Source of the DNA: Thermoplasmata archaeon
GTDB taxonomy: Archaea > Thermoplasmatota > Thermoplasmata > Thermoplasmatales > Thermoplasmataceae
Length of the DNA stretch: 49,091 bases
Direction: 5' to 3'
NCBI GenBank assembly: GCA_021835025.1
Contig: JAKBQY010000056.1
Coordinates: 1 to 49,091 of the forward strand
Shown: positions 2,847 to 6,128 of the stretch, piece by piece
Layout of the letters: every line of letters starts with the position of its first letter
Position numbering within the stretch: position 1 is the stretch's first letter
Position numbers and translations under genes: made by a program
Notes under the pieces: generated by a model
Databases searched by the model: none
What the model was told of the DNA's origin: nothing
The model's input: the letters and a program-made list of their open reading frames with translations, nothing else

Positions 2847-2856
2847 GATATAAATT
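2847..2856 (+). promoter_or_regulatory. Possible promoter of the ilv leader transcript
   Basis: GATATAAATT is a TATA-like element in the 314-base gap before ilvB. A second candidate, TTTAAATAC near 2912-2920, lies inside the first short ORF. If the upstream box is used the first ORF is at or near the transcript start; if the second is used only the second ORF is transcribed. The choice cannot be made from sequence alone. Confidence 0.35.
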
Positions 2857-2890
2857 ATTCAATATTCAAAAGGAGGGGAGTTATAATAAC

Positions 2891-2926
2891 ATGAAAAAAT
2901 TCTGGAATAGATTTAAATACTATTAA
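2891..2926 (+). CDS. Putative leader peptide 1 upstream of ilvBNC (11 aa)
   Basis: The ORF encodes MKKFWNRFKYY. It is preceded by AGGAGGGGAG at 2871-2880, ten bases before the ATG, one of the strongest Shine-Dalgarno matches in this window. Five of the 11 residues are aromatic (F, W, F, Y, Y). It is too short for homology support. The strong ribosome site in an otherwise non-coding leader is the only evidence for translation, so its role is inference. Confidence 0.4.
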   Translation: MKKFWNRFKYY

Positions 2927-2969
2927 GTATTATATTATTTCAATCGATATTAATGATTTAGTTTGGTTG

Positions 2970-3096
2970 AAAACAAAATCTGTATATATCGAAAGGAGTG
3001 ATCAATTATGGAAAAATGTGTGAAAAGGTTTATCTAACATCTGTGGCGAATTATTTTTTAATTTTTCATGTTGGATAAGCAAAACAGATATGTTTT
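2970..3096 (+). promoter_or_regulatory. Structured ilvB leader: hairpin, enclosing helix and U-tracts
   Basis: Bases 3029-3040 (TTTATCTAACAT) pair with 3068-3079 (ATGTTGGATAAG), giving 12 pairs with two G-U. A long-range helix encloses it: 2970-2975/3091-3096 and 2978-2983/3084-3089, six pairs each. The hairpin loop holds T6 at 3054-3059 and T5 at 3062-3066, which could act as an archaeal U-tract terminator. The ilvB Shine-Dalgarno GGGGGTG (3106-3112) lies ten bases after the enclosing helix. The arrangement suggests translation-coupled control; the pairing was found by eye. Confidence 0.45.
3008..3037 (+). CDS. Putative leader peptide 2 upstream of ilvBNC (9 aa)
   Basis: The ORF encodes MEKCVKRFI. 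The sequence AAAGGAGTG at 2992-3000 lies seven bases before the ATG, and together with the following ATCA it matches the anti-Shine-Dalgarno sequence closely. The last sense codon (ATC, Ile) and the stop codon sit in the 5' arm of the hairpin at 3029-3079, so a ribosome finishing this ORF would melt that hairpin. It contains one Val and one Ile codon and no Leu, which is a weak bias for an ilv attenuator. Confidence 0.45.
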   Translation: MEKCVKRFI

Positions 3097-3117
3097 CTAT
3101 AATGTGGGGGTGTTTTT

Positions 3118-4842
3118 GTGAAGGGTTCTAAATTATTGGTTGAATCTCTGAAAAGAGAGGGGGTGAAAAGTATCTTTGGTATACCCGGATTATATAATAT
3201 GCCAATGTATGATTCTCTCTATGAAGATGTGGAAAATGGGGAATTAAAGCATGTATTAATGCGGCATGAGCAGGCGGCAGCACATGCTGCTGACGGTTTT
3301 GCTAGAGCTACAGGGAAACCAGGAATTTGTACGGCTACGGCGGGTCCAGGTGTTACGAATCTGGTTACAGGGCTTATTACAGCATATCAAGATTCTTCTC
3401 CAGTTATTGCAATAACAGGCAGCGTTAACAGGCCATCGATGGGAAAGCTTTCATTCCAGGAATCTGATACACTTGGAGTATCTTTTCCAGTTTCGAAATA
3501 TGCCCTTGAGATAAGACGGATTGAAGATATACCGTTATCAGTTAAAAATGCTTTTCATGTTGCATCTACGGGAAGGCCCGGGCCAGTCGTTATAGATATA
3601 CCCCGGGATGTTCAGATGGAAGATATAGACGATGTTAAATATCCAGACCAAACAACAGTCCATTATAAACCATTCAAAACCATAGTGGATAATGATAAAA
3701 TTAAACTGGCTGCATCGTATCTTTTAAACGCAGAACGACCTGTTATACTTGTGGGAACAGGAACAATGTGGGCCAATGCAACGCCAGAGGTACTGAAACT
3801 TGCTGAGTTTCTTGGTTGCCCCGTTGTATCAACATTACCGGGAAAATCATCAATGCCCGCCGATTTTCCACTATATGTTGGTGCCATGGGTTATTATGGA
3901 AAAGCTGAGGCAAGCATGGTTGCACTTGAATCTGATGTAATGATAGCCATAGGGGCAAGGTTCAGTGATCGAACATTTACATCATATAATGAAATGCGTG
4001 ACACAAAGAAAAAATTCATATCGGTAAATCTTGATCCTACTGATTTTAGCAAGGGAATAAAACCGGACATAGGATTACAGGGCAATGCCAAATTGCTAAC
4101 TGTAGAACTTTTAAGGGCATTAACCCTGCTGGGAAACAAACATAGTAATTATGAATGGAATAAGAGAGTTAATGAATTAAAGGAATATTATTCTCAGTTT
4201 TCACATCCATCGGATGATGGCAAATTAAGACCGTGGAAGGTACTTAAAACAATGAGGGATTCACTTCCCAGGGATACAATTTTAACCACGGGAGTTGGAC
4301 AGCATCAAATGTGGGCAGAAGTATACTGGGAAAACCTTGAACCAAGATCATTTTTCTCTTCTACAGGAATGGGAACTATGGGCTTCGGTTTACCAGCAGC
4401 AATGGGTGCTAAAGTTGGAAGACCGGATAAGGTTGTTGTTGATTATGATGGCGATGGCTCATTTATGATGACTGGAAATAATCTGGCAACTGCAGTTGAT
4501 GAACATATACCGATAATAGCAATAGTCAACGATAACAGAACTCTGGGTCTGGTGAGACAGGTTCAGGATATGTTTCAGGACAAAAGAATAATAGGAGTTG
4601 ATTATGGAGATTCACCGGATATAGTGAAATATGCCGAGTCGTTTGGGGCAGATGCATATGGTGTAAAATCATATGACGATCTTGCGGAATTCATCAAAAA
4701 AGCTATAAGGGAAAATGTACCTACTGTTATCAGGGTTCCAATGGATAAAGAAGAGCTGGCCCTTCCAACATTACCGCCGGGCGGAAAATTAAGTGAGGTG
4801 ATAGTAAGTGACCCAAGAAAGATTAATAAAAGTAGTAGCTGA
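3118..4842 (+). CDS. ilvB: Acetolactate synthase large subunit
   Basis: This is a 574-residue ThDP enzyme that condenses pyruvate to acetolactate, or with 2-oxobutyrate to acetohydroxybutyrate, opening Ile/Val/Leu synthesis. The N-terminal PYR domain has GIPGLYNMPMYDSL and the essential Glu in MRHEQAAAHAADGFAR. The C-terminal PP domain has the ThDP/Mg motif VVDYDGDGSFMMTGNNL to IVNDN. The length is normal. The GTG start at 3118 is chosen because GGGGGTG lies five bases upstream; no in-frame ATG precedes it. The next gene overlaps its 3' end and ilvC follows, so this is one operon behind the unusual leader. Other ThDP synthases such as a sulfopyruvate or glyoxylate enzyme are less likely given ilvC linkage. 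Confidence 0.93.
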   Translation: MKGSKLLVESLKREGVKSIFGIPGLYNMPMYDSLYEDVENGELKHVLMRHEQAAAHAADGFARATGKPGICTATAGPGVTNLVTGLITAYQDSSPVIAITGSVNRPSMGKLSFQESDTLGVSFPVSKYALEIRRIEDIPLSVKNAFHVASTGRPGPVVIDIPRDVQMEDIDDVKYPDQTTVHYKPFKTIVDNDKIKLAASYLLNAERPVILVGTGTMWANATPEVLKLAEFLGCPVVSTLPGKSSMPADFPLYVGAMGYYGKAEASMVALESDVMIAIGARFSDRTFTSYNEMRDTKKKFISVNLDPTDFSKGIKPDIGLQGNAKLLTVELLRALTLLGNKHSNYEWNKRVNELKEYYSQFSHPSDDGKLRPWKVLKTMRDSLPRDTILTTGVGQHQMWAEVYWENLEPRSFFSSTGMGTMGFGLPAAMGAKVGRPDKVVVDYDGDGSFMMTGNNLATAVDEHIPIIAIVNDNRTLGLVRQVQDMFQDKRIIGVDYGDSPDIVKYAESFGADAYGVKSYDDLAEFIKKAIRENVPTVIRVPMDKEELALPTLPPGGKLSEVIVSDPRKINKSSS

Positions 4843-5125
4843 TTATAAGGATCCGGGATTGGTGGAAAGAATATCCGCAAATTTCAGAAGGTTCTGGGTG
4901 GATATAAAATGGATGCATACGGATTGCGATGATAATGATATATGTACCATATTTTTATCTCTATATGAAAAATACAATATGGAAAATATAGATTTATCAA
5001 TTACGACGTTAAGTAAAATGGTGGATGTTGACAGCGTCGAAATATTGAACGACTATAAAATAAATAATTTTGATATAAAATATAATAATTCCACAAAATA
5101 TGAATGGGGTGAATTGGTTGAGTAA
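4808..5125 (+). CDS. ilvN: Acetolactate synthase regulatory (small) subunit-like protein
   Basis: The 105-residue protein lies between ilvB and ilvC. Its GTG start overlaps the ilvB end by 35 bases and follows GTGAGGTGAT at 4792-4801. Residues 5-75 look like an ACT-type fold: RLIKVVADYKDPGLVERISA, then a second strand around ICTIFLSLYEK. The usual N-terminal signature of IlvN/IlvH is not obvious and the second half is short and polar. Typical subunits are 80-170 residues. The assignment rests on position, length and a weak ACT-like pattern. It would bind the large subunit and confer valine feedback inhibition. Confidence 0.7.
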   Translation: MTQERLIKVVADYKDPGLVERISANFRRFWVDIKWMHTDCDDNDICTIFLSLYEKYNMENIDLSITTLSKMVDVDSVEILNDYKINNFDIKYNNSTKYEWGELVE

Positions 5126-6128
5126 AATACTGGGAAAAGTGTATACGGAAAATGATGCGGATTTGAAATATGTGAAGGGTAAAAATATAGCAGTGCTTGG
5201 CTATGGTAGTCAGGGAAGAGCATGGACTCTGAATCTAAAGGATTCGGGTTTAAATGTAAAGCTTGGCCTCGAAAGAGAGGGCAATTCATGGAATAAGGCA
5301 AAGGAAGATGGTGTAACACCAATGAAAACTGAAGAAGCCTTGAAAGACGCTGATATAGTTATATTTCTTGTTCCGGATATGGTACAGAGAAAAATATACA
5401 ATGAAAAGGTAAGGCCTATTTTGAAAGATGGCATGGACCTTGTATTTGCACATGGTTTCAACATACATTATAAGCTGATATCGCCACCTGAGAATGTTGA
5501 TGTCTATATGGCCGCACCAAAAGCTCCTGGCCCTTCAGTAAGAGAATTCTTCGTTAAGGGAGGAGGTGTACCAGTTCTTGTCAGTGTTTATCAGGATCAC
5601 TCCGGGGAAGCTCTGAATAAGGCTCTTGCCATTGCAAAAGGGCTTGGAGCAACCAAAGCAGGTGTGCTTGAGACAACCTTTAAGGAGGAAACTGAAACTG
5701 ATTTAATGGGTGAACAGCTTGACCTAGTCGGCGGATTGACCGAACTTTTGAGGTCAACATTTCATACAATAGTTGATCTTGGATACAGACCGGAAATGGC
5801 TTATTTTGAAGCCATTAATGAAATGAAACTTATAACAGACCAGATATTTGACAAAGGATTATCGGGCATGCTTCGGGCAGTTTCGGACACAGCAAAGTAT
5901 GGTGGCCTGACAACGGGACCATATTTGATAAATGACGATGTCCGAAAGAGAATGAAGGAAAGAGCAGAAAAAATAAAAAGTGGCAAATTTGCCAGTGAAT
6001 GGATTGAGGAATATGATGAGGGCTCAAAACATCTGGATTCCCTGATGGCAGATCTGGACAACTCACTTGAGGAACAGGTGGGCAAAGAATTGAGAGAAAT
6101 AGTTTTAAGGGGAAAACCAAAAAATTAA
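5118..6128 (+). CDS. ilvC: Ketol-acid reductoisomerase, class I
   Basis: This is the second enzyme of branched-chain amino acid synthesis. It isomerises and reduces acetolactate to dihydroxyisovalerate. The N-terminal Rossmann domain has IAVLGYGSQGRAWTLNLKDSG. The knotted C-domain has the Mg ligands in ETDLMGEQ and the following EAINEMK helix. The TTG at 5118 is preferred because GGGGTGA at 5105-5111 precedes it and the product then begins SKILGKVYTENDADL like other class I enzymes. An ATG at 5100 is possible but has no ribosome site. The cofactor loop reads LEREGNSW; the first position is usually Arg in NADPH enzymes and is Glu here, so NADH use is possible. It overlaps the ilvN stop. Confidence 0.95.
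   Translation: MSKILGKVYTENDADLKYVKGKNIAVLGYGSQGRAWTLNLKDSGLNVKLGLEREGNSWNKAKEDGVTPMKTEEALKDADIVIFLVPDMVQRKIYNEKVRPILKDGMDLVFAHGFNIHYKLISPPENVDVYMAAPKAPGPSVREFFVKGGGVPVLVSVYQDHSGEALNKALAIAKGLGATKAGVLETTFKEETETDLMGEQLDLVGGLTELLRSTFHTIVDLGYRPEMAYFEAINEMKLITDQIFDKGLSGMLRAVSDTAKYGGLTTGPYLINDDVRKRMKERAEKIKSGKFASEWIEEYDEGSKHLDSLMADLDNSLEEQVGKELREIVLRGKPKN

Follow-up and report, generated by a model that had tools for sequence, protein, structure and literature searches.

Amino-acid attenuation by translated leader peptides is a textbook bacterial mechanism, and the branched-chain amino acid (BCAA) operons ilvGMEDA and ilvBN of enterobacteria and ilvBNC of Corynebacterium are under control of this kind. 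Archaeal transcription terminates at U-tracts, for which a hairpin is not obligatory (PMC8716108). For efficient binding of aCPSF1/FttA two U4 tracts are required (PMC8716108), and FttA and the ribosome have been proposed to exclude each other from the elongation complex (PMC11616081). In archaea too, upstream ORFs are said to have regulatory roles, according to an introductory sentence that gives no example (PMC10219788). A search of 5.4 million open-access papers, a set without subscription papers and preprints, yielded leader peptides of bacteria and U-tract termination of archaea but no description of an archaeal amino-acid attenuator; absence from this set does not prove novelty.

The leader analysed here precedes ilvBNC in the window, by which we mean the whole stretch of 49,091 nucleotides of Thermoplasmata DNA under analysis, contig C50 of a 1.68 Mb genome. 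Among named organisms, those found to be closest are Acidiplasma aeolicum and Ferroplasma acidarmanus. The initial annotation of this DNA had proposed that a translated leader peptide tunes ilvBNC in an archaeon. This central idea is supported, while a first short ORF (ORF1), two helices and a hairpin switch that came with it are not. The evidence behind it is the conservation of the second short ORF (ORF2), above all the BCAA-rich ORFs found before ilvB throughout the class, and the leuA leaders of the same genomes. With the anatomy corrected, leader-peptide attenuation before ilvBNC is well supported by sequence comparison, and archaea probably use a leader-peptide switch hitherto described in bacteria. 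What the comparison supports best is ORF2 as a putative leader peptide that would sense the supply of isoleucine. The features of the locus are collected in Table 1.

Table 1. Features of the ilvBNC leader and operon (positions in the window).
Feature	Position	Strand	Remark
Core promoter: TATA box TTTAAATA (2912-2919) and downstream ATTAAGTATT	2912..2936	+	Same block before ilvB in Acidiplasma and several Ferroplasma-group leaders
5' UTR hairpin, from predicted transcript start to ORF2 Shine–Dalgarno sequence	2938..2998	+	z = -2.3 in the window
ORF2 Shine–Dalgarno sequence AAAGGAGTG	2992..3000	+	Similar sequence at the same place in 12/14 leaders
Leader ORF2, MEKCVKRFI and stop; last sense codon Ile AUC 3032-3034, stop UAA 3035-3037	3008..3037	+	In frame, 14/14 leaders
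Near-invariant block TTTATCTAACATCTGTGGCG spanning the end of ORF2	3029..3048	+	Conserved across 14 leaders
AACATCT, possible anti-Shine–Dalgarno sequence for ilvB	3036..3042	+	Pairs with 3108-3114
U-tracts T6 (3054-3059) and T5 (3062-3066), candidate archaeal terminator	3054..3066	+	
ilvB Shine–Dalgarno sequence GGGGGTG	3106..3112	+	
ilvB, acetolactate synthase large subunit	3118..4842	+	GTG start
Probable ilvN, small regulatory subunit	4808..5125	+	ORF; identity from operon order
Probable ilvC, ketol-acid reductoisomerase	5100..6128	+	ORF; named by sequence reading and operon order

A comparison with the bacterial ilv attenuators shows the same target operon, a short ORF with end-product codons and a U-tract ahead of the structural gene; the classic runs of Ile, Leu and Val codons are shared by distant Thermoplasmata leaders. 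The host, however, is an archaeon, the window's clade has a single Ile codon before the stop, and it lacks conserved terminator and antiterminator hairpins, the proposed terminator being a hairpin-free U-tract. As no hairpin switch is conserved, we file the element as attenuator-like and keep it apart from the classical hairpin-switch family. With ermC-type translational attenuators it shares a short upstream ORF and possibly an adjacent anti-Shine–Dalgarno (anti-SD) sequence, but the signal would be charged tRNA and not a drug, and the pairing is weak with no clear switching in folding. Like the archaeal terminators that depend on U-tracts and FttA, it has at least two tracts of U4 or longer and no hairpin, as found at 3' ends (PMC8716108). 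Unlike these, the tracts belong to a 5' leader and follow a short ORF at fixed spacing, which suggests conditional and not constitutive termination. By its AUC codon ahead of a BCAA operon the leader also recalls the Ile T-box riboswitches, but here the codon is located inside an ORF that is presumably translated, and the leader contains neither a T-box sequence nor a conserved fold. No Rfam family matches at gathering score in the entire window.

The close ilvB orthologs that were compared have 72-92% identity, in addition to a partial one (G036) at 67%. A sequence model of the element matches 14 genomes from genera g1, g10 and g19 at the ilvB locus (E<1e-7); among its weak matches outside ilvB, none of those inspected resembled a leader. 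These 14 leaders are interrelated and represent perhaps five or six independent lineages. All of them carry, before ilvB and in frame, a short ORF (6-9 sense codons) that ends with Phe-Ile-stop, or with Leu-Ile-stop in g19. The counterparts of ORF2 are MENYMKRFI, MYGMKRFI, MNSVRSFI, MDGVKGFI, MKSVSRFI, MKSVSEFI, MKSMNRFI, MKYVSRFI and MAKRLI. In the two g19 leaders, which account for those with no SD-like sequence, the TATA box precedes the start of the ORF by about 25 nt, and the ORF is probably leaderless. ORF2 and its SD-like sequence were read correctly in the initial annotation, and the conservation in relatives that it asked for is found for ORF2 in frame and Ile-stop end, but not for ORF1 or either stem.

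The features that stand out above chance in the 14 genomes are ORF2, its last codons, the 11 bases past the stop and the U-tract. Block TTTATCTAACATCTGTGGCG is identical in 11 of the leaders; G074 differs by a single T-to-C change, and the two g19 leaders have it in partly altered form. Its Ile codon AUC is invariant, with no substitution by AUU or AUA among the 14 leaders. Since AUC is never replaced by its synonyms and the block extends 11 nt past the stop, part of the constraint acts on RNA or DNA and not on the peptide. No further copy of the block exists in the window's genome, even at 3 mismatches. In this clade the ORF offers one invariant Ile codon only. With a single Ile codon the codon bias of the window's peptide, which the initial annotation had also called weak, shows nothing by itself.

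More distant relatives give the strongest support. Leader ORFs of the classical kind are found before distant ilvB genes, namely MSKSEKFKEYLKNAQFAGRLLLVIIILVILIIVQ, MENQKNPERELTNALFAGHLLLSVLVILLIIIVQ, MSLTASTTELNFSVVGILQIIIGL and MRPNPTASNVILNTISGIIGLVIR, each followed by a stop, and a class-wide search returned others, for example ORFs that end in AVIIIVLGVLLDLRILRP, SSLLGVVVVLIR, SILLPLLKVIVVL or SLLVSVQVLVV before the stop. Clustering of Ile, Leu and Val codons is significant against dinucleotide shuffles (p < 0.05) in 34 of 39 ilvB leaders from eight families (f1, f5, f8, f23, f24, f32, f33 and f34), with up to 14 such codons in a row; the 39 were picked after looking, as having a candidate ORF, so that this fraction describes those families and not a class-wide rate. 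Regions upstream of other genes, taken from the window's clade, gave 1/30 at p < 0.05 in the same test. Before the ilvB genes of families f11, f14 and f27 a BCAA-rich leader is mostly absent. Directly past the stop, many of the distant BCAA-rich leaders have a GC-rich hairpin, for which an automatic consensus is weak. Several other families have a stop-adjacent hairpin with CCUC in its 3' arm and no U-tract behind it. Most BCAA-rich leaders elsewhere lack a U-tract and have a hairpin past the stop, so that families may differ in their output step. Family f5 (L009, L010/L156, L157) has an ORF with 10-14 consecutive Ile, Leu or Val codons 110-125 nt before ilvB. This ORF is followed by a C-rich stretch, GGTGGG(GGG) and T6, which resembles a classical GC-hairpin terminator with its U-tract, in an archaeon.

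In the window, the transcript is predicted to start near 2938, downstream of ORF1. ORF1 itself is present at 2891-2926 with an SD-like sequence as described in the initial annotation. As a leader ORF it does not hold, since it has no counterpart in G001 (92% identity) and contains the conserved TATA box. From the position of this predicted box (2912-2919), ORF1 is probably upstream of transcription and outside the transcript. A start downstream of 3037 had been named as fatal to the earlier proposal; the predicted one lies upstream of that position, which allows ORF2 and excludes ORF1. A near-perfect SD sequence, AAAGGAGGGGAG, is found at 2868-2880 before ORF1, upstream of the predicted promoter and with no counterpart in the closest relative. 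Between the predicted start and the SD of ORF2, a long hairpin occupies the same place with a different sequence in each lineage in 12/12 SD-led leaders (z -0.8 to -3.7, mostly -1.9 to -3.7; G078, with -0.8, and G080, with -1.7, are the weaker ones). It is absent from both probably leaderless g19 leaders. Its recurrence from predicted start to SD supports the predicted transcription start, and it may present the SD of ORF2 to the ribosome.

The hairpins drawn earlier fared less well. All 12 pairs of the proposed hairpin 3029-3040/3068-3079 are present, and the enclosing helix 2970-2983/3084-3096 can form with a duplex energy of -8.1 kcal/mol. The leader of the window, taken from the predicted start, also folds better than dinucleotide shuffles (z = -4.9 and -4.0), with the 12-pair hairpin inside the fold. 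As a conserved switch the two are unsupported. For the hairpin, 69% of the cells are paired, with no two-sided changes and a score no better than its shuffles in 12 aligned leaders; the helix is paired at 51% in 12 leaders and is outscored by a control slid by two columns. RNAalifold on the 12 leaders returned no consensus structure, and mutually exclusive terminator and antiterminator hairpins were not found. In genus g19 the ORF, probably leaderless, and the stretch up to ilvB together take about 55 nt, and hairpins of such size cannot fit. A switch between two hairpins is not needed, and the drawn hairpin and helix show no covariation and are not kept among the leaders.

The U-tract behaves differently. 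Both runs are present as first annotated, as is the ribosome site of ilvB. A run of T5-T7 starts 10-16 nt past the stop in 13/14 leaders, where shuffled sequences would give roughly 0.14 per leader (0.04-0.25). The U-tract ends 22-28 nt, mostly 24-26 nt, from the first base of AUC, again in 13/14 leaders, and this spacing is kept although the bases between block and run vary. The exception is G001, the closest relative, which lacks the early U-tract. At least two runs of T4 or longer lie between the stop and ilvB in 12/14 leaders. A candidate terminator signal is found, in sum, between the leader ORF and the first gene, and FttA/aCPSF1 is encoded in the window's genome. A second aCPSF-family protein (G000:C43:38611-39783) has homologs in G001, G020 and G027; in-frame stops apparently interrupt the match in several genomes.

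Where ribosome and polymerase are coupled in bacteria, a ribosome that holds AUC in the A site extends about 12 nt further and the polymerase covers about 14 nt. With these bacterial dimensions, a ribosome at the AUC of ORF2 would touch a polymerase that stands where the U-tract ends. We consider it slightly more likely than not that the ilvBNC leader is an Ile-sensing leader-peptide attenuator in which the position of the ribosome gates U-tract/FttA termination. Transcription would start at about 2938, the 5' hairpin would present the SD, and a ribosome would translate the nine-codon ORF2 behind RNA polymerase. With plentiful Ile-tRNA it would read AUC, terminate at UAA and depart; the polymerase would then reach the U-tract with bare RNA behind it and be released by U-tract termination with FttA/aCPSF1. 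With Ile-tRNA in short supply, the ribosome would stall with AUC in the A site and its leading edge at about CATCTG, where it would touch the polymerase at the U-tract about 25 nt ahead and either block FttA or push the polymerase, so that ilvBNC is transcribed. That ORF2 is translated, that ribosomes stall on it, that transcripts end at the U-tract and which way the control runs are all inferred. U-tract termination was chosen as the output step because the spacing between AUC and the U-tract is fixed and because little else is present in the g19 leader.

An output step at the level of translation would dispense with transcription termination. AACAUCU, which runs across the stop of ORF2, can pair with GGGUGUU at the SD of ilvB. 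A ribosome at the Ile codon or the stop would cover this anti-SD and free ilvB, and its departure would shut off ilvB translation. Averaged over the leaders, AACAUCU forms the best duplex with the ilvB SD of all leader positions (-5.9 vs a mean of -1.4 kcal/mol), and it is the best in most leaders individually. A. aeolicum, where the SD has drifted, retains ACATC/GATGT, and the U-to-C change in G074 strengthens the pairing. Sequestration of the SD would also suit the several other families with CCUC in a stop-adjacent hairpin and no U-tract after it. However, seven-pair runs counting G-U arise easily by chance in a block of such length, and G078 and G080 have a mismatch. The pairing would span a loop of about 65 nt, and the predicted accessibility of the SD barely shifts with ribosome position. 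Translational attenuation through this pairing is the main rival account but a rather unlikely one, and it leaves the placed U-tract unexplained. U-tract termination, the preferred output step, may act together with SD sequestration.

The base-for-base conservation of TTTATCTAACATCTGTGGCG over coding and non-coding positions is also what one would expect if a transcription regulator bound it as a DNA operator, close behind the transcription start, with the ORF incidental. The block, however, is not palindromic and is unique in the genome, the start codon and frame are kept in all leaders, and the SD in 12/14, while the intervening bases change, and distant relatives have BCAA-rich ORFs instead of the block at the same gene, which together make an operator very improbable. 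Arrest of the ribosome by its own nascent chain deserves hardly any credence. On sensing a small molecule such as Ile or a keto acid, a peptide ending in RFI would hold its own ribosome at the stop; the ending (F/L)-I-stop is indeed invariant, with K or R frequent before it. The peptide, however, has merely 6-9 residues, those preceding FI vary (KR, RS, KG, SR, SE, NR), and the conserved pattern is one of nucleotides and not of amino acids.

Taking the class as a whole, we advance with some reserve, as a proposal that falls a little short of an even chance, that BCAA leader-peptide attenuation is ancestral and widespread in Thermoplasmata. The Acidiplasma/Ferroplasma form would be minimal, with one Ile codon and a hairpin-free U-tract one ribosome-plus-polymerase length apart, whose contact would switch FttA-dependent termination. 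Leader ORFs with Ile, Leu and Val runs before ilvB would extend attenuation to a second domain of life, and attenuation in Thermoplasmata would give archaeal transcription-translation coupling a physiological role. In the minimal form of the window, the proposed mutual exclusion of FttA and ribosome becomes testable at one natural site with known spacing. As to gene order, ilvD lies divergently and directly upstream of the ilvB leader in Ferroplasma (L005, L006/L036 and other loci) and on a separate contig in Acidiplasma genomes.

Leader ORFs that contain Leu codons are found before leuA: MNSIMFIEQLFFLLLE and similar ones in the Ferroplasma group, MNGMVFTQLLFLLAE in g19, MLTLVLHEVLLLNESTLSPVVL in G010, MLTLLVPEFLLLGQSTLSPVVL in G034, MFNIVSNNANVLFLGLHSGH in the window's own genome and one ending in PLLLLPLGLLILA in family f8, all closed by a stop. 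Enrichment in Leu reaches significance in some of them (p = 0.01-0.05) and is borderline in others; in the window's genus, Leu content alone is not significant (p = 0.42-0.80). As a negative control, 16 trpE loci were inspected, mostly of family f11, and no Trp-rich leader ORF was found; no conserved leader ORF was noticed before ilvD and PALP-family genes. In the leuA upstream regions L107-L112 and L126-L142 and in that of the window's genome (G000:C11, L147), the Leu-containing ORFs are probably leaderless. Apparently covarying hairpin arms flank them, and a possible anti-SD for leuA lies right past their stop. The window's genome also has another leuA fragment (L136, G000:C18:2-916), located at the edge of a contig and 86% identical to the Ferroplasma acidarmanus protein. 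The other leuA of the window's genome is 55% identical to that protein, and L136 would represent a recent transfer or a contamination of the bin.
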